Positions 1-8,035 of a DNA stretch of 44,130 bases are shown in pieces (the stretch's first letter is position 1; each line of letters begins with the position of its first letter). Position numbers and translations under genes: made by a program. Where the stretch lies: positions 1 to 44,130 of the forward strand of contig JAUYPJ010000073.1 of the NCBI GenBank assembly GCA_030697665.1, in the 5' to 3' direction. The notes under the pieces were generated by a model, which saw nothing but the letters and a program-made list of their open reading frames with translations, was not told the origin of the DNA and did no database searches. Source of the stretch: Candidatus Omnitrophota bacterium (GTDB lineage Bacteria > Omnitrophota > Gorgyraeia > Aquiviventales > Aquiviventaceae).

Positions 1-579
1 AAGCCGCTCGCGATCGCCAAGCAGGTCGACCATGAGCTCGAGGTGCGGGTCCATCCCACCCTGCTGGCCAAGACCCACCTCTTGGCCAATGTGAACGGGG
101 TGTACAACGCGATCTACGTCCATGGGGACCTGGTGGGTTCAGCCCTCTTCTATGGGCGAGGCGCCGGGCAGAATCCGGCCGCAAGCTCCGTGGTCTCCGA
201 CATCGCCGACGTGGCGCGCAACATCGCCAGCGGCGTGAGCCACCGCGTTCCGTTGATGCCTCGCCCAAGCCATACGATCCGCCGGCTGCGCCGGATGGGG
301 GCCATCGAAACCCGCTACTACATGCGGTTCATGGTGACCGATCGGCCCGGGGTCCTGGCGCGCATCGCAGGGGTGCTGGGGCGCCATCACATTTCCATTG
401 CGAGCGTCCATCAGAAGGAGCGGCGGGCGGCCCGCATCGTCCCCGTGGTGATGCTGACGCATGAAGCCCGGGAGGCCGACGTCCGCGACGCGCTCCGGGC
501 CATCGATCGCCTCGGATTTGTGAAGCAGCCCACGGTGGCGATTCGCACCGAAGCCCCGCGGACGAAGAGCGCTCCGTGA
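1..579 (+). CDS. hom: Homoserine dehydrogenase, C-terminal part (5' truncated by window)
   Basis: Reduces aspartate semialdehyde to homoserine in the cytoplasmic threonine/methionine pathway. The reading frame is open from base 1, so the gene starts upstream; 192 codons are visible. The stretch VRVHPTLLAKTHLLANVNG and the following FYGRGAGQNPAASSVVSDI are typical of the catalytic C-terminal half of Hom. From about base 310 there is an ACT-type regulatory domain (YYMRFMVTDRPGVLARIAG), which in this family mediates threonine feedback inhibition. The stop overlaps a GTG start of thrC by 4 nt (GTGA), which suggests translational coupling. The NAD(P)-binding N-terminus cannot be seen. Confidence 0.93.
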   Translation, partial: KPLAIAKQVDHELEVRVHPTLLAKTHLLANVNGVYNAIYVHGDLVGSALFYGRGAGQNPAASSVVSDIADVARNIASGVSHRVPLMPRPSHTIRRLRRMGAIETRYYMRFMVTDRPGVLARIAGVLGRHHISIASVHQKERRAARIVPVVMLTHEAREADVRDALRAIDRLGFVKQPTVAIRTEAPRTKSAP

Positions 580-1754
580 GCCCCTCTCGCCCTTCAGCCC
601 GTCCCTCGCCCCCCCGGCCCGCCTTTCACGACCGCCGGGGCGGGCCCGCCCCCCGCCCCTCACCCCTCTTGAAGCCGTGGCGTGGGGTGATCGAGACGTA
701 CCGGCCGTACCTCCCCGTCTCCTCAAAGACCCCGGTCATCACCCTCCTGGAAGGCAATACCCCGCTCATCCCCAGCCGGGTCCTCAGCCGGCGGGTGGGG
801 GGCCGTGCCGAGGTGTACCTGAAGTACGAGGGGATGAACCCCACCGGCTCGTTTAAGGACCGCGGGATGACCGTGGCGATTTCCAAAGCGGTCGAGGCCA
901 AGTCGGTCGCGGTCCTCTGCGCCTCGACCGGCAACACCTCCGCCTCCGCCAGCGCCTACGCGGCGCGCGCGGGGGTGCGGTCGATCGTGCTGATTCCGAG
1001 CGGGGCCATTGCGCTGGGGAAGCTGTCGCAGGCGCTCATCCACGGGGCGCGCGTCGTGGCGGTGGAGGCCAACTTCGATGCCTGCCTGGCGCTGGCGAAG
1101 TCGCTCGCGCAGCTCCACCCCATCACCCTGGTCAATTCCATCAACCCGCATCGGATTGAAGGCCAGAAGACCTGCGCCTTCGAGATCTGCGACGCCCTGG
1201 GGCGGGCGCCCGACATCAATATCACGCCGGTGGGCAACGCCGGCAACATCACCGCGCAGTGGAAAGGCTACCGGGAGTACTACGATCGCGGGCGCATCCG
1301 GCGCCTTCCCCTGATGGCGGGATTCCAGGCCGAGGGGGCTGCTCCGCTGGTCAAGGGAAAGATCATCACGCATCCCCGGACGATTGCCACGGCGATTCGG
1401 ATCGGGCATCCGGCCAGTTGGCAGGGGGCCCTGGCTGCCAGCGAGGAGTCCCACGGCTTCATCCGCGCCGTCTCGGATCGGCAGATCCTTCAGGCCTACC
1501 GGCTCCTCGCCGCTGAGGAGGGCGTCTTCGTGGAGCCCGCCTCGGCGGCGGCGGTCGCGGGGTTGCTCGCGCTGGCCGAGAGCGGATACTTCACGCAGCG
1601 CGTCCGGTCTCGCCACCGAGGCGGGCCGCTCATCGTGTGCATCCTCACCGGTCATGGGTTGAAAGATCCTGAGCGAGCCATCAAGAGTATCCGGGTCCCC
1701 CGGCCCCTCCCCCCGGCGCTTTCCACCATTGCGAAAGCGATCGGCCTGAAGTAG
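576..1754 (+). CDS. thrC: Threonine synthase
   Basis: PLP enzyme converting O-phosphohomoserine to threonine. The PLP-lysine motif NPTGSFKDRG is at about residues 88-97, the phosphate-binding region is in STGNTSASASAYAARAG, and the length (392 aa) is a little above the usual ~350. The excess is an odd Arg/Pro-rich N-terminus of about 36 residues before LKPWRGVIETYRPYL, where family members normally begin. This extension is encoded by a palindromic repeat (611-652) also found inside coaX. The start at 576 (GTG overlapping the hom stop) is the only in-frame option that couples to hom; a more internal start near base 684 would remove the repeat from the protein. Function is secure; the start is uncertain. 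Confidence 0.93.
   Translation: MSPSRPSARPSPPRPAFHDRRGGPAPRPSPLLKPWRGVIETYRPYLPVSSKTPVITLLEGNTPLIPSRVLSRRVGGRAEVYLKYEGMNPTGSFKDRGMTVAISKAVEAKSVAVLCASTGNTSASASAYAARAGVRSIVLIPSGAIALGKLSQALIHGARVVAVEANFDACLALAKSLAQLHPITLVNSINPHRIEGQKTCAFEICDALGRAPDINITPVGNAGNITAQWKGYREYYDRGRIRRLPLMAGFQAEGAAPLVKGKIITHPRTIATAIRIGHPASWQGALAASEESHGFIRAVSDRQILQAYRLLAAEEGVFVEPASAAAVAGLLALAESGYFTQRVRSRHRGGPLIVCILTGHGLKDPERAIKSIRVPRPLPPALSTIAKAIGLK
611..652 (+). repeat. 42-nt palindromic element, thrC copy
   Basis: This segment contains the perfect 16-bp palindrome GGGGCGGGCCCGCCCC and matches 26292-26333 (reverse strand, inside coaX) at 41 of 42 positions. It lies in the N-terminal extension of thrC. Flanking CCCTC/CCCCTC runs are also repetitive. 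Confidence 0.85.
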
Positions 1755-1758
1755 TCTA

Positions 1759-2901
1759 ATGAAGTACGTCATCGTGCGTTGTGAGGACGGGGTGCAAGGC
1801 GGGAGGGGCGCGACCCTCCTCGAAGGGGCCAAGCTCTCCCACCTGCAGCAGCTCGCCCAGGCCGGCGCAGCAGGAGGAATCACGGCGGCGTCCTCGGGTT
1901 CCGCCGGCGTTGAGTCGCTTCACCTGCACCGCGCGCTGTTCGGGCTCTCCCCCAGCGATCCTGAGGCGGCTCCCGGGCGATGCTACGCGGCCAGCCTGAA
2001 CGTCCCGCTCGCCGAGGAGGAAACGGTGTGGTGCGCTGAGTTGGTGACGCAGCATGAGGGGCGGGTGGTGGATCCCGCCGCGGGTCGTATTCCGACCCGT
2101 GAAAGCACGCTGCTGCTGCAGGCGCTTCGTGACCACCTCGGTTCAGACACCAGACGATGGGTCGCCGGGGATCGTTCCCGCCACGTCTTGGTGGCCCGTG
2201 ACGCCTCGCTGGCGTCGGATGGCTTGTGGTCGATGCCGTGCCCTGAAGGGCTGCGGGGGCAGCGATGGGAGCAGGCGCTGCCGGCCGGTCCGGTCGGAGA
2301 GGCGCTGCGGCTGCTGATGGCGCAGGCCTCCCAGGTGCTGGAGGAGCATCCCGTCAACCGGGTGCGGGTGGATTTAGGAGAGAACCCGGCGAATCTGCTC
2401 TGGTTCTGGGGCGCGGCCAGCGGAGGGCGACGCCGGACATTCACCGAGCGAGCGGGCTGCTCCGGGGCGGTCGTCTCGGCCAGCTTCCCCATGCGCGGTT
2501 TTGCGGCGACGCTGGGCCTTGAGTGGCGGCAGGGGATCGCCTCGTGTGAAGAGCAGGCCATCCGGCGTCTGATGGAGACGCTCAGCGCGTTGCTCACCCG
2601 ATGCGACTTCATCTACGTGCACGTGCGCGTGGAGAGCGCCGACCCGGTGGAGCGGCTCTGCGCGATGGAGCGGGTCGACCAGGGCCTGCTCAAACCGTTG
2701 ACCGAGACCTTGCCCGGCCTGGGCTCGTGGCGGTTGTTAGTGGTGCTGGATGACCGGCCGCCCCTGACCGCGCCGTTCGTCGCGATCGGGACGGGGATCG
2801 CGCCGCAGCCGATCGTGCGCCTGGAGGCCCGGTATCTTGCCGAGAGCCCCTTGGTCTTCAGCGACGGGGTGCGGTTGTTCACCTGGTTCACCGCGACATG
2901 A
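1759..2901 (+). CDS. ApgM-type phosphoglycerate mutase-like protein, catalytic motifs eroded
   Basis: 380 aa, matching the length and order of the archaeal-type cofactor-independent phosphoglycerate mutase family (alkaline phosphatase superfamily). Recognisable family segments are WCAELVTQHEGRVVDPAAG, the tail equivalent of 'ANxxWxWG' (NPANLLWFWGAASGG) and the strand DFIYVHV. However, the motifs that normally hold the metals and nucleophile are not there: the DEAGH-like motif after FIYVHV reads VESADPVERL, the TADH-like motif reads VLDDRPPL, and no ANLS-like nucleophile motif follows SGSAGVE. In hom-thrC-lysC operons lacking thrB, PGM-like proteins have been proposed to supply homoserine kinase. 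This position fits that role, but the missing ligands argue for a non-catalytic or diverged protein. It starts 5 nt after the thrC stop. Confidence 0.75.
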   Translation: MKYVIVRCEDGVQGGRGATLLEGAKLSHLQQLAQAGAAGGITAASSGSAGVESLHLHRALFGLSPSDPEAAPGRCYAASLNVPLAEEETVWCAELVTQHEGRVVDPAAGRIPTRESTLLLQALRDHLGSDTRRWVAGDRSRHVLVARDASLASDGLWSMPCPEGLRGQRWEQALPAGPVGEALRLLMAQASQVLEEHPVNRVRVDLGENPANLLWFWGAASGGRRRTFTERAGCSGAVVSASFPMRGFAATLGLEWRQGIASCEEQAIRRLMETLSALLTRCDFIYVHVRVESADPVERLCAMERVDQGLLKPLTETLPGLGSWRLLVVLDDRPPLTAPFVAIGTGIAPQPIVRLEARYLAESPLVFSDGVRLFTWFTAT

Positions 2902-2914
2902 GGCCTGACGCCTG

Positions 2915-4141
2915 ATGCGCCGCAGACTGATCGTGCAGAAATTCGGGGGCAGCTCGGTGGCGAATCCCGAACGCATTCAGCGGGTCGCCCAGCGGGTGGT
3001 GGAGACGAAGCGCACGGGCGCGGACGTGGTCGTGGTGGTCTCCGCCCTCGGGGACACGACCGATGAGCTGCTGCAGTTGGCCTCGCAGATCAGTCAGAGC
3101 CCCCCTGAACGGGAGCTGGATATGCTCATGGCGACGGGGGAGCAGGTATCGGTGGCGCTGCTGGCGATGGCGATTCACGAATTGGGGGAAGACGCGGTGT
3201 CATTTACGGGGGCGCAGGTCGGGATCTTGACCGATGGGACGCACACCAGGGCGAAGCTGGTGGACATCAACACCCAACGGGTCGTCAAGGAGCTCGCCAG
3301 AGGCCGCCTCGTCATCATCGCCGGGTTCCAGGGAGTGAACCTCAACCAGGACATCACGACGCTCGGCCGGGGAGGATCCGATCTTACCGCCGTCGCCCTG
3401 GCGAAGGTGCTGGGGGCGGACGCCTGCGAGATCTATACGGATGTCGAGGGGGTCTTTACGGCGGACCCCCGCATCGTGCCCCAGGCGAGGAAGCTGCCGG
3501 TCATCAGCTATGACGAGATGCTGGAGATGGCCTCGCTCGGCGCCCAGGTAATGCAGGCGCGATCCATCTTTGTCGCGAAACGGTTCGATATTCCCATTCA
3601 CGTCCGTTCCAGCTTTTCACCGCGGGAGGGCACCATGATCCAGCAGTCGGCCAAAGCGATGGAGGATATCGTCGTCAGCGGCGTGACGCTCCAGAAGGAT
3701 GAGGCGAAGGTGACGATCCGCGACGTGCCGGACAAGCCGGGCATGGCGGCGGAGATCTTCCGCGAGCTGGCGGCCAAAGAGATCAACGTCGACATGATCG
3801 TCCAGAACGTCAGCCGGGAAGGCTCCACGGATCTGTCCTTCACCGTGGTCAAGGGCGATCTGCCGGCCACTCTCCGGGTCACCCGCAGCGTGTCCCACCG
3901 GATCGGGGCGGGGGAGGTGACGACCGATGAGGGAGTGGCCAAGCTCTCCATCGTGGGGATCGGCATGCGCAGCCACTCCGGCATCGCCGCCAGGATGTTT
4001 GAGGCGATGGCGCGCGAGCGCATCAACATCGAAATGATCTCGACGTCCGAGATCAAGATCTCCTGCGTCATCCGCAAGGCCCACGCCGAGCGGGCGGTCC
4101 GCGCGGTCCATCGGGTCTTCGGCCTTGCCAAGAGAAGATAA
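2915..4141 (+). CDS. lysC: Aspartokinase (aspartate kinase), LysC type
   Basis: Phosphorylates aspartate as the first committed step for Lys, Thr, Met and Ile. The N-terminal kinase signature [13 protein letters not shown] is at residues 9-21, [13 protein letters not shown] lies in the nucleotide-binding part, and two C-terminal ACT repeats ([20 protein letters not shown] and [20 protein letters not shown]) provide allosteric control. The length, 408 aa, is typical of monofunctional class enzymes. It begins 13 nt after the PGM-like gene; the short gap holds two 7-bp repeats (GCCTGAC, GCCTGAT) ending in its ATG. Confidence 0.96.
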
Positions 4142-4150
4142 GCAATCTGT

Positions 4151-4238
4151 GTAATGTTCAATGTGGAATGTGTAATGTAAAGGCCAAATACGATGTCGTT
4201 CTTGTCGTTGACATTACACATTACACTGTTCACATTAC
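4151..4238. repeat. Inverted heptad array between lysC and cimA
   Basis: Four tandem heptads of form NNAATGT (4151-4178: GTAATGT, TCAATGT, GGAATGT, GTAATGT) are followed after about 32 nt by four heptads of the reverse complement (4211-4238, mainly ACATTAC). The two arms can pair into a hairpin just upstream of the cimA start at 4251. Confidence 0.9.
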
Positions 4239-4250
4239 ACAAAATGGTCC

Positions 4251-5933
4251 ATGACTAGAGTTGAGCTCTACGACACCACTCTTCGGGATGGGGCCCAGAC
4301 AGAGGGCATCTCCTACTCCGTGCAGGATAAGCTGCGCATCACCGAGAAGCTGGACGCCCTCGGCGTGCACACCATCGAGGGGGGATGGCCGGGCTCCAAC
4401 CCCAAGGACGGGGAGTTCTTCCGCCGCGCGAAGCGGTTGCGCCTCGCGCGTGCGCGACTGGCCGCGTTTGGCAGCACCCGGCGCGCCGCGACCGCGGCGC
4501 GGGATCCAAACCTCCAGGCGCTGCTCCGGGCCCAGACGCAGATCGTGACGATTTTCGGAAAGAGCTGGGACCTGCACGTCCACGATGTCCTGAAGATCAG
4601 CCTGGAGGAGAACCTGAAGGTCATCGAGGAGTCCGTCGCGTTCCTGAAGCGCCGCGGCCTGCGCGTCATCTACGACGCGGAGCATTTCGTCGACGGCTAC
4701 CGGGACAACCCCTCCTACGCGCTCAAGACCGTCACCGTGGCCCGTGAGGCGGGGGCCGACACGGTGGTGCTGTGCGACACCAACGGGGGCAGCCTGCCCT
4801 CGGACATCACGGCCGCCGTCCAGGCGGTGCAGGCGAGCCTGCAAGCCCCCCTCGGCATCCATACGCACAACGACGGCGATCTGGCGGTCGCGAACGCCCT
4901 GGCGGCGGTCGGGGCCGGCTGTACCCAGGTCCAGGGGACGATCAACGGCTACGGGGAGCGGTGCGGGAATGCCAACCTCGTGTCGCTCATTGCGCTCCTC
5001 AAGCTCAAGCTGGGGATCGACTGCTTGCCGGACGCCAAGCTCAGGGAGCTGACGGAAACCTCCCGCTACGTGGCGGAAGTCAGCAACATGGCGCAGCACA
5101 TGCACCAGCCGTTCGTCGGCTCAGCCGCGTTCGCCCACAAGGGCGGGGTCCATGTGAATGCCGTGCTGAAGAATCCCCGCACCTATGAGCACATGGATCC
5201 CTCTGCCGTGGGGAACCAACGCCGGGTCCTCGTGTCTGAGCTGTCCGGTCGCTCCTCGCTCGTGTTCAAGGCGAAGGGCCTGGCGCTGGACCTCTCGAAA
5301 GAGACGCCCCAGGCCAAGCGCCTCCTCCGGCTCCTCCAAGGGCTGGAGCACCGTGGCTACCATTTTGAAGCGGCCGAGGGTTCGCTGGAGCTCCTCCTCA
5401 AACGGCAACTCAAGCGGCTGACGCCGTTCTTCACGCTGGAGGGGTTTCGGGTCATCATGGAGAAGCGGGATCAGCGCCTGACGTCGGAGGCCACGATCAA
5501 ACTGCGCGTCAAGGGGGTCGTAGAGCAGACGGCGGCGGAAGGGGATGGACCGGTCAACGCCCTCGACAACGCCATCCGCAAGGCGCTCCGCCGCTTCTAC
5601 CCCACCCTCTCGCAGATGCACCTGACCGATTTCAAGGTGCGCGTGCTGGATGAGAAGGCCGGCACGGCCGCGAAGGTCCGCGTGCTCATCCAGTCGCAGG
5701 ACGAGCATGATTCCTGGGGCACCGTCGGCGTCTCCGAGAACATCATCGAAGCGAGCTGGCAGGCGCTCGTCGACTCGATCGAGTACAAACTGTTGAAAGA
5801 TCAGAAGGCAGAAGTCGGAGGTCAGAAGACAGAAGGCAGAAAGCAGAAGGCAGAGATCGGAAGTCAGAAAGCAGAAGGCGGAAAGCAGAAGGCAGGCCAG
5901 ACCAGGCTCCGCCGCCCCGCCCGCGCAAGCTGA
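4251..5933 (+). CDS. cimA: (R)-citramalate synthase
   Basis: Condenses pyruvate and acetyl-CoA to citramalate, a threonine-independent route to 2-oxobutyrate and isoleucine. The N-terminal HMGL/DRE-TIM barrel shows [18 protein letters not shown] (residues 4-21), the metal-binding [13 protein letters not shown], and a C-terminal LeuA dimerisation/allosteric domain ending near residue 520. The last ~40 residues are a 7-residue repeat ([28 protein letters not shown]) encoded by a 7-bp tandem array at 5800-5896, followed by a short basic end. That tail is not part of the known fold. The start was chosen at 4251, where homologous sequence begins; an ATG at 4244 is out of frame. Its place after lysC fits branched-chain and threonine metabolism. 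Confidence 0.94.
5800..5896 (+). repeat. Heptad array (about 13 units) in the cimA 3' end
   Basis: Tandem 7-bp units of consensus RKCRGAA (for example GGCAGAA, GTCAGAA, AGCAGAA, ATCGGAA) run without interruption through the end of cimA. Three units equal seven codons, so the encoded tail has a 7-residue period. No reverse-complement arm was found nearby. Confidence 0.92.
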
Positions 5934-5968: not shown

Positions 5969-6049
5969 CCAGCTAGGATGCTACGGTTAGCACGCGTTGG
6001 GACGTCCCCCGCAGGTCTCCAAACACAAAGTGTATGTGACGGTGATGAG

Positions 6050-6826
6050 ATGGTAATGGGTGAATCGCTAGAGGATGCGGAAAAGAAAGCAGCCCACCTA
6101 TTGCTGCCGGAGTTGAAGGACCACCTTGAGCTTATACGCGGGTTCATGAACCTGATCGGGGAGAGTGGAGGGGTACTGCCGATAAATGAGTGTGCGCAGT
6201 CAGTTAAGGTTACCTCCCAGCTTCTGATACGGCTTGCTAACGATCTTCGTTGCGTGCACCTGTTAGCGGAACGTGGCTATCATCTTCAGGCGTGGACCAT
6301 CGCCTCGTCCGTTTACGAGGTCGGTATCACTGTAGCTTATATCGGGAAAGACGAGGAGCGGGCCCAAAAATGGATTGACCATGATAAACCTGACCAACCG
6401 TTTCTGAACCTGAGGACGGCTACGATAGAAGCGTTCAAGGCACTCGGAATTTCTGACCCGGAGAACCAAGCCGAGTCTGACTACCGCGTTTATCAATGGC
6501 TCTGCATGGGCAAGCACGCTAATCCGTTACTTCAGAAGGAATACGGGTTGATTCGGTGGGGGCAGGGTGCTCGCTTACAGAACGGTCCCGAGGAAACTGC
6601 TGTAGACAGCTTATGGTATGCGATGGATCATGCGGCTAGGTACGCTTATGTTGCCCTTGCTGCGTTCGCGATGAGTCATCTACCCATTGAGCAGCATAAC
6701 CGCATCGCAGAACGAGCCAACGCCCTTGCCGCTAAACGCGAGCAATTAAGAATCACGGCAAGGCAACGATGGTCCGGTCAGGATCCCTTTCAGGAGAAGT
6801 GGAGGCCGCAACGGAAAGCTCATTAG
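6050..6826 (+). CDS. Hypothetical protein, DUF5677-like
   Basis: 258 aa from the ATG at 6050; an in-frame ATG at 5978 would add 24 residues of unlikely sequence, and neither start has a strong Shine-Dalgarno. The protein is largely alpha-helical. The stretches LAERGYHLQAWTIASSVYE and KWIDHDKPDQPF, and a WLCMGKHANP motif, resemble the poorly characterised DUF5677 family, whose members often occur as cargo in variable regions. No signal peptide or membrane segment is visible. GC content is lower than in the flanking operons, and the gene stands alone between REP-like and IS-associated sequence, so horizontal origin is likely. Function unknown. Confidence 0.6.
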   Translation: MVMGESLEDAEKKAAHLLLPELKDHLELIRGFMNLIGESGGVLPINECAQSVKVTSQLLIRLANDLRCVHLLAERGYHLQAWTIASSVYEVGITVAYIGKDEERAQKWIDHDKPDQPFLNLRTATIEAFKALGISDPENQAESDYRVYQWLCMGKHANPLLQKEYGLIRWGQGARLQNGPEETAVDSLWYAMDHAARYAYVALAAFAMSHLPIEQHNRIAERANALAAKREQLRITARQRWSGQDPFQEKWRPQRKAH

Positions 6827-7120: not shown

Positions 7121-8035
7121 GAACCGGTTTCATAAATGGTATTGCCTACTGAGGAGATCATGCTAAGCTGGGCCTGGGAGGCTTTGAAGGAGGCGCATCG
7201 CACCAGAGGAGGGGTGGCTGATGGCCTTTGGACCGTTGTTGACCGACGCCCAGTGGGCGAAGATTGCTCCACACCTGCCCGTCCTGCCCCGCCGCAAGGA
7301 CAGGCGAGGGCGGCCCTGGCGAGACGATCGCGCCTGCTTCGCGGGGATCCTGTGGGTGCTGCGCACCGGCGCCCACTGGAAGGCCCTGCCGCAGGAGTAC
7401 CCCAGCCCGGCGACCTGCTGGCGACGGCTGCGGCGCTGGGAGGACGACGGCACCTGGCTCAAGCTCTGGCGGGCGTTCCTGGCCGAGCTGGATGGGAAGA
7501 ACCGGTTGAACTGGAGCGAGGCGTTCATCGATGGCAGCTTCGTGTCTGCCAAAAAAGGGGGCCCGCCGTCGGCCCGACCAAGCGGGGGAAAGGCACGAAG
7601 TGGATGGTGGTGGCAGACGGCGCGGGTCTTCCTCTGGGAAGCGCCCTGGCCGCGGCCTCCCCTGCGGAAGTCACGCTCGTTGACCAGACGCTCCAAGCGA
7701 TTGCCGTCCCACGCTCCGGCCCCGGTCGGCCCCGCCAGAAGCCGGACCGGCTGATCGGTGATAAGGCCTTCGACAGCGACCCGCTGCGGACTCGCTTGGC
7801 GCAGCGGGGTATCGAGCTCATCAGTCCTCACCGCACGAACCGCGTGAAGCCGCCCACGCAGGACGGACGCGCGCTGCGCCGCTACCGGCGACGGTGGAAG
7901 ATCGAACGCCTCTTCGCATGGCTGGGCCACTACCGCCGCCTCGTCATCCGCTACGAACACTCGCTGGTCATGTACAGTGCGTTCTTCCATGTGGCGTGTG
8001 CCATGATCGTGCTCAGGCATTTATGAAACCGGTTC
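7121..8035 (+). mobile_element. Complete IS5-family insertion sequence (915 bp, IS427/ISL2-like)
   Basis: Perfect 18-bp terminal inverted repeats GAACCGGTTTCATAAATG at 7121-7138 and, inverted, at 8018-8035. Both ends are flanked by TA (7119-7120 and 8036-8037), consistent with a TA target duplication. The transposase stop codon lies within the right inverted repeat. It has inserted 17 bp upstream of the small gene at 8053. Confidence 0.92.
7221..8026 (+). CDS. IS5-family DDE transposase made by -1 frameshift
   Basis: The N-terminal half lies in the frame starting at 7221 (MAFGPLLTDAQWAKIAPHLP, with WVLRTGAHWKALP and the first catalytic Asp in FIDGSFVSAKK). The second half lies in the -1 frame (KRGKGTKWMVVADGAG, then the second Asp in LIGDKAFDSD and Glu in RWKIERLFAWLGHYRR). 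The frames overlap at A6G5 (7551-7561), a slippery run expected to allow -1 slippage of the AAA codon. The fused product would be about 268 aa, normal for this group. Because the inverted repeats are perfect, the two-frame layout is more likely programmed frameshifting than decay, but a simple mutation cannot be excluded. Confidence 0.88.

Follow-up and report, generated by a model that had tools for sequence, protein, structure and literature searches.

What does a phosphoglycerate mutase-like protein do in a homoserine-threonine operon when the residues for catalysis are gone, and which protein phosphorylates homoserine there? Few gaps in predicted amino-acid pathways are as common as a missing homoserine kinase: ThrB was absent from 29 of 148 prototrophs, 15 of the 29 carrying TIGR02535 (PMC7311316), a family proposed as homoserine kinase on operon position (PMC7311316) and, as 'ThrB2', backed by genome-context work (PMC9026213). 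Operon position and a mutant phenotype are the main grounds for the TIGR02535 assignment. BT2402, an intact TIGR02535 member of Bacteroides thetaiotaomicron, is needed for threonine, yet fails to rescue an E. coli thrB mutant (PMC7311316), a hint that simple kinase function does not describe the protein in this slot. The assignment can be probed in nature through lineages whose operon protein persists after loss of the catalytic site: should such dead versions still sustain threonine synthesis, the role of the family is not, or not only, phosphotransfer.

The window, a stretch of 44,130 nucleotides from a Candidatus Omnitrophota bacterium (contig JAUYPJ010000073.1), contains such a protein in a tight cluster with the gene order hom-thrC-X-lysC-cimA. 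The gene at position X opens with an ATG at 1759, 4 bases past the thrC stop, and closes with a stop codon at 2899-2901, 13 bases ahead of the lysC ATG. A preliminary description had placed a PGM-like protein of the homoserine-threonine operon here, and the reading frame, its coordinates and its neighbours all proved correct:

1..579, forward strand: homoserine dehydrogenase, 3' part with ACT domain, truncated by the window start (domain search)
576..1754, forward strand: thrC, threonine synthase (PALP, 236 bits; domain search); the real start codon may lie further inside
1759..2901, forward strand: gene for a probable ApgM-like pseudoenzyme ('PGML'), 380 aa (profile matches, AlphaFold, Foldseek, orthologues)
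2915..4141, forward strand: lysC, aspartate kinase (domain search)
4251..5933, forward strand: cimA-type citramalate synthase, HMGL and LeuA dimer domain (domain search)

The tail of the citramalate synthase gene (5802-5899) is an array of degenerate 14-base units (CAGAAGGCAGAAAG-like), adding ~40 residues that the orthologue at locus L102 does not have. Between lysC and cimA (4142-4245) lies low-complexity DNA in which 'words' such as GTTGACATTACACA recur, and similar word-like repeats occur in translated frames close to the stand-alone ApgM in L001. An ORF between cimA and a transposase (5978-6826) shows weak DUF5677 likeness (25.7 of 27.1 bits), its place after cimA being taken by valS at L102. 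The transposase, of IS4/IS5 type, lies at 7136-8026 in two overlapping frames, with PF13340 in one and PF01609 in the other, and is either frameshifted or expressed via programmed frameshift. An Rfam search of the window gave no match.

By sequence and predicted fold, the protein is a divergent member of the family of ApgM, the archaeal-type cofactor-independent phosphoglycerate mutase. The cap domain (PF10143) scored 52.7 bits against a Pfam cut-off of 21.5, and the metalloenzyme core (PF01676) gave no Pfam match. The NCBIfam scores, 147 bits for TIGR00306 (cut-off 320) and 126 for TIGR02535 (cut-off 446), fall far short of the curated thresholds for the functional enzymes. Solved ApgMs were the sole matches in a sequence search of the PDB (2zkt, E = 8e-13), and the intact ApgM of the same genome is 27% identical across 402 columns. 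The AlphaFold model was confident (pLDDT 91.8, pTM 0.91), its top Foldseek matches being the solved ApgMs 3kd8 (E = 3e-24), 3idd and 2zkt with TM-scores of 0.55-0.67, perhaps due to differing domain orientation. The protein shares overall fold and cap domain with these structures but lacks the two-metal site, a conserved Ser nucleophile and most substrate-binding residues. It is likewise of the same fold family, and found in the same kind of operon context, as the TIGR02535/ThrB2 proteins; BT2402, however, retains all zinc ligands (PMC9765024). PhpG, a phosphonoformyl transferase (NF038358), is an ApgM relative with another function, but the match to it is weak, 45 bits being far under the cut-off of 545.

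The extent of the catalytic loss was read from an alignment that set 17 orthologues, the window copy among them, beside intact ApgMs (41 from operons of the class, 23 stand-alone) and the other degenerate copies, the ligand counts comparing the 17 with the 41. Across the window clade, six of the seven catalytic positions (two metal sites and the nucleophile) were lost or replaced:

1783..1788, forward strand: E9-D10, E9 standing in place of the first metal-2 Asp (PDG to CED); E9 in 15/17 and D10 in 17/17 orthologues
1915..1917, forward strand: column of the catalytic Ser; S53 in the window copy, Arg in 13/17 orthologues
2629..2634, forward strand: V291/E292 junction, the deletion site of the metal-1 DEAGH loop
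2749..2754, forward strand: D331-D332, what is left of the metal-2 'DH' motif (Asp retained, His to Asp)

One metal ligand of six, Asp331, is kept in the window protein. The metal-1 Asp of DEAGH is deleted in all 17 orthologues and the DEAGH His lost in 16, and the third metal-1 His is deleted in 17/17 together with its loop, downstream of D331-D332. At metal site 2, the first Asp has become Glu or Gln in 17/17, and of the 'DH' motif the Asp is kept in 16/17 with the His changed to Asp in 13/17. This agrees with the earlier claim that the DEAGH-like and TADH-like motifs are replaced, and the profile alignment placed no intact ligands elsewhere in the protein. The parallel claim for the nucleophile holds for the clade, where Arg prevails, but not for the window copy, which has a Ser; S53 was rejected as a retained nucleophile because the orthologues mostly have Arg at that column. 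Most substrate-binding Arg, His and Lys residues of intact members are also gone: the GRG Arg has disappeared, and Cys replaces the FRCN Arg in 17/17 orthologues and Leu the xKA Lys in 15/17. R203 and the block H197-N212 with W215/W217 are kept. Pseudoenzyme status is thus well supported by the alignment, and a protein so altered would probably have no transferase activity.

Most other families of the class have an intact ApgM in the same slot, and the two copies tested exceeded the TIGR02535 cut-off of 446 (531 and 547 bits), in accordance with the expectation that the slot is usually occupied by a candidate homoserine kinase. In a second family (f8), the operon copy of 10 out of 13 genomes is likewise degenerate, its deletions being unlike those of the window family (f1): about 16 residues of the YDTNYxGKA segment are gone, and the His loop is replaced, not deleted. 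A third degenerate operon copy, on contig L115, has substitutions only. As the lesions are largely different among f1, f8 and L115, loss of the catalytic site looks to have been repeated. It may instead have been one ancient loss common to all three, and the change of Ser to Arg in both f1 (13/17) and f8 (5/9) would fit a common step; the differing deletions of f1 and f8 speak against it. The degenerate copies sit beside each other on long branches of the tree, a placement to be read with the mutual attraction of long branches in mind, and a ThrC tree did not resolve a sister relation of f1 and f8. Among individual loci, the operon ApgMs of L215-L224 and L060 (f8) and of L115 have lost most or all metal ligands and keep a DLGENPxN motif, and the intact stand-alone f8 ApgMs of L208-L214 have Thr for Ser at the nucleophile (PGTD for PGSD). 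Our literature search found no report of ApgM pseudoenzymes, of metal-less members or of Omnitrophota threonine enzymes.

The absence of thrB noted for the window holds well beyond it. ThrB (GHMP, TIGR00191) exceeded its cut-off in 0 of 59 genomes and ThrB-alt (TIGR00938) in 0 of 25, own genome included in both; among the f8 genomes whose sole ApgM is a degenerate copy, the search covered one, G033. The best TIGR00191 match in the own genome was rejected as a ThrB, being IspE, and a second GHMP match was weak (24.8 bits). At the orthologous locus L102, the other genes, named from translations (gpsA upstream, valS downstream), included no kinase candidate. A second apgM, which the preliminary description had proposed to look for, was found outside the window: it is intact, lies beside a cysteine desulfurase and scores 533 bits for TIGR02535 (cut-off 446). 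The own genome has a separate GpmA as well.

The distribution of the stand-alone copy, however, tracks the threonine operon poorly, which weakens it as a replacement kinase. Five f1 genomes (G004, 84% complete; G012, 95%; G018, 66%; G021, 90%; G023, 78%) and six f8 genomes (G033, 97%; G067, 92%; G092, 97%; G148, 80%; G149, 85%; G151, 84%) have the operon and a degenerate copy and no other ApgM, and incomplete assembly cannot easily explain the missing intact ApgM in all eleven. These genomes make the stand-alone ApgM an unlikely general substitute. Conversely, G013 (96% complete) and G016 retain it although neither operon ThrC nor LysC turned up in them. Window-family genomes without GpmA carry a stand-alone ApgM, with four exceptions at 63-84% completeness, a distribution that fits a role as phosphoglycerate mutase. 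At L048 (G014), the gene immediately upstream of the stand-alone ApgM is a further ThrC copy that shares 56% identity with the operon ThrC; most relatives have a cysteine desulfurase in that place.

Could the degenerate protein itself still be the homoserine phosphotransferase of the pathway, by a new chemistry without the two metals? It is the sole candidate in the operon, R203 and the surrounding motif are kept, and the eleven genomes have no other ApgM and, where tested, no ThrB over the cut-off. Yet 13/17 orthologues have Arg at the nucleophile position, the clade has lost the GRG Arg, the FRCN Arg and the xKA Lys, and among the residues conserved instead we recognised no kinase-like constellation; we consider this reading improbable, though the best placed of the alternatives. 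Slightly less probable still is a heteromer, in which the operon protein would be the inactive half and the intact stand-alone ApgM the real homoserine kinase. Most family genomes, the own genome among them, have both proteins, and the separate GpmA of the own genome would serve glycolysis; the idea has to contend with the eleven genomes, several 90-97% complete, that have a degenerate copy and no intact ApgM, and with the persistence of the stand-alone copy in G013 and G016.

The alkaline phosphatase superfamily includes one-metal sites, those of the sulfatases. A sulfatase-like enzyme acting on another substrate with a single cation at the remnant metal-2 site (E9/D10, D331/D332) would account for the conservation of E9/Q9, D10 and D331. 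We regard it as doubtful to the same degree as the heteromer, as there is no conserved nucleophile, 4/17 orthologues have another residue in place of D332, and the residues retained by the f8 and L115 copies are not the same set.

Of 27 genomes from this Omnitrophota family, 18 (own genome included) carry the gene, at 39-59% identity, and its conservation extends over many genera. A single-protein search of the genome contigs found no relative; relatives were recovered by an alignment-based search, the loci coming from Candidatus Omnitrophota with few exceptions. Where the flanks could be checked, the gene adjoins lysC, and usually also thrC, so that it nearly always occupies the same operon slot, and in the tree the f1 operon copies form one separate clade with full support. 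Pairwise dN/dS was 0.19-0.36 for the gene, 0.10-0.29 for ThrC and 0.05-0.09 for LysC, indicating purifying selection. The presence in 18 genomes, the dN/dS well below 1 and the confident AlphaFold and Foldseek fold mark the product as a maintained, folded protein and not as decay. A relic carried along between thrC and lysC would suit a gene that evolves faster than its neighbours, that the operons of G015 and G017 lack and that did not turn up in G019, but it is an improbable account of 17 full-length orthologues of which none is disabled, with invariant motif residues.

The residues that do persist centre on one segment:

2347..2394, forward strand: H197-N212, motif HPVNRVRVDLGENPAN, an operon-type signature (alignment)

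The pattern NxVRxDLGENPxN, in the window family NxVRxDLGENPAN, is kept in intact and degenerate operon copies alike (f1, f8, L115) and absent from stand-alone ApgMs, the intact ones of which have a different sequence there. Counting as operon-specific the columns conserved in the intact operon copies and both degenerate families and not in stand-alone copies, we obtained V202, D205, L206, E208, N209 and N212, plus G344. This suggests that the distinguishing property of the operon-type ApgM sits in the motif segment and needs no metals.

Our preferred reading, with a probability of about one half, takes the gene product as a conserved pseudoenzyme whose role in the threonine pathway is non-catalytic, homoserine being phosphorylated by another protein. 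The ancestor would have been an ApgM-family protein of the TIGR02535 'proposed homoserine kinase'/ThrB2 type, as found intact in the same slot in most relatives. In the window family, the two-metal site would then have disappeared along with the nucleophile and most phosphate-binding residues, while the fold, the operon position and the motif were retained. Through this motif the protein may do a non-catalytic job, for example binding a pathway metabolite, or alternatively docking on Hom, ThrC or LysC for their regulation or assembly; a different protein would phosphorylate homoserine. Two points weigh against this reading. Operon ThrC is present without the gene in G015, G017 and G019, making the gene dispensable at least there, and if the eleven genomes hold no other homoserine kinase, the degenerate protein is the remaining operon candidate. 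Of the three options in the preliminary description, phosphorylation by another protein and a non-catalytic role are thus favoured and function without the usual metals is unlikely, since the nucleophile and most substrate-binding residues are lost too; none is proven.

The metal-less operon protein is a variant of the known ApgM/ThrB2 family and bears directly on the unsettled TIGR02535 assignment. More tentatively, the operon-type ApgM of Omnitrophota may have a metal-independent function around NxVRxDLGENPxN, several lineages having shed the catalytic site and kept that function. If this is true, operon position alone has misassigned such proteins as homoserine kinases, and threonine synthesis in Omnitrophota involves an accessory factor and a kinase that have both gone unrecognised.
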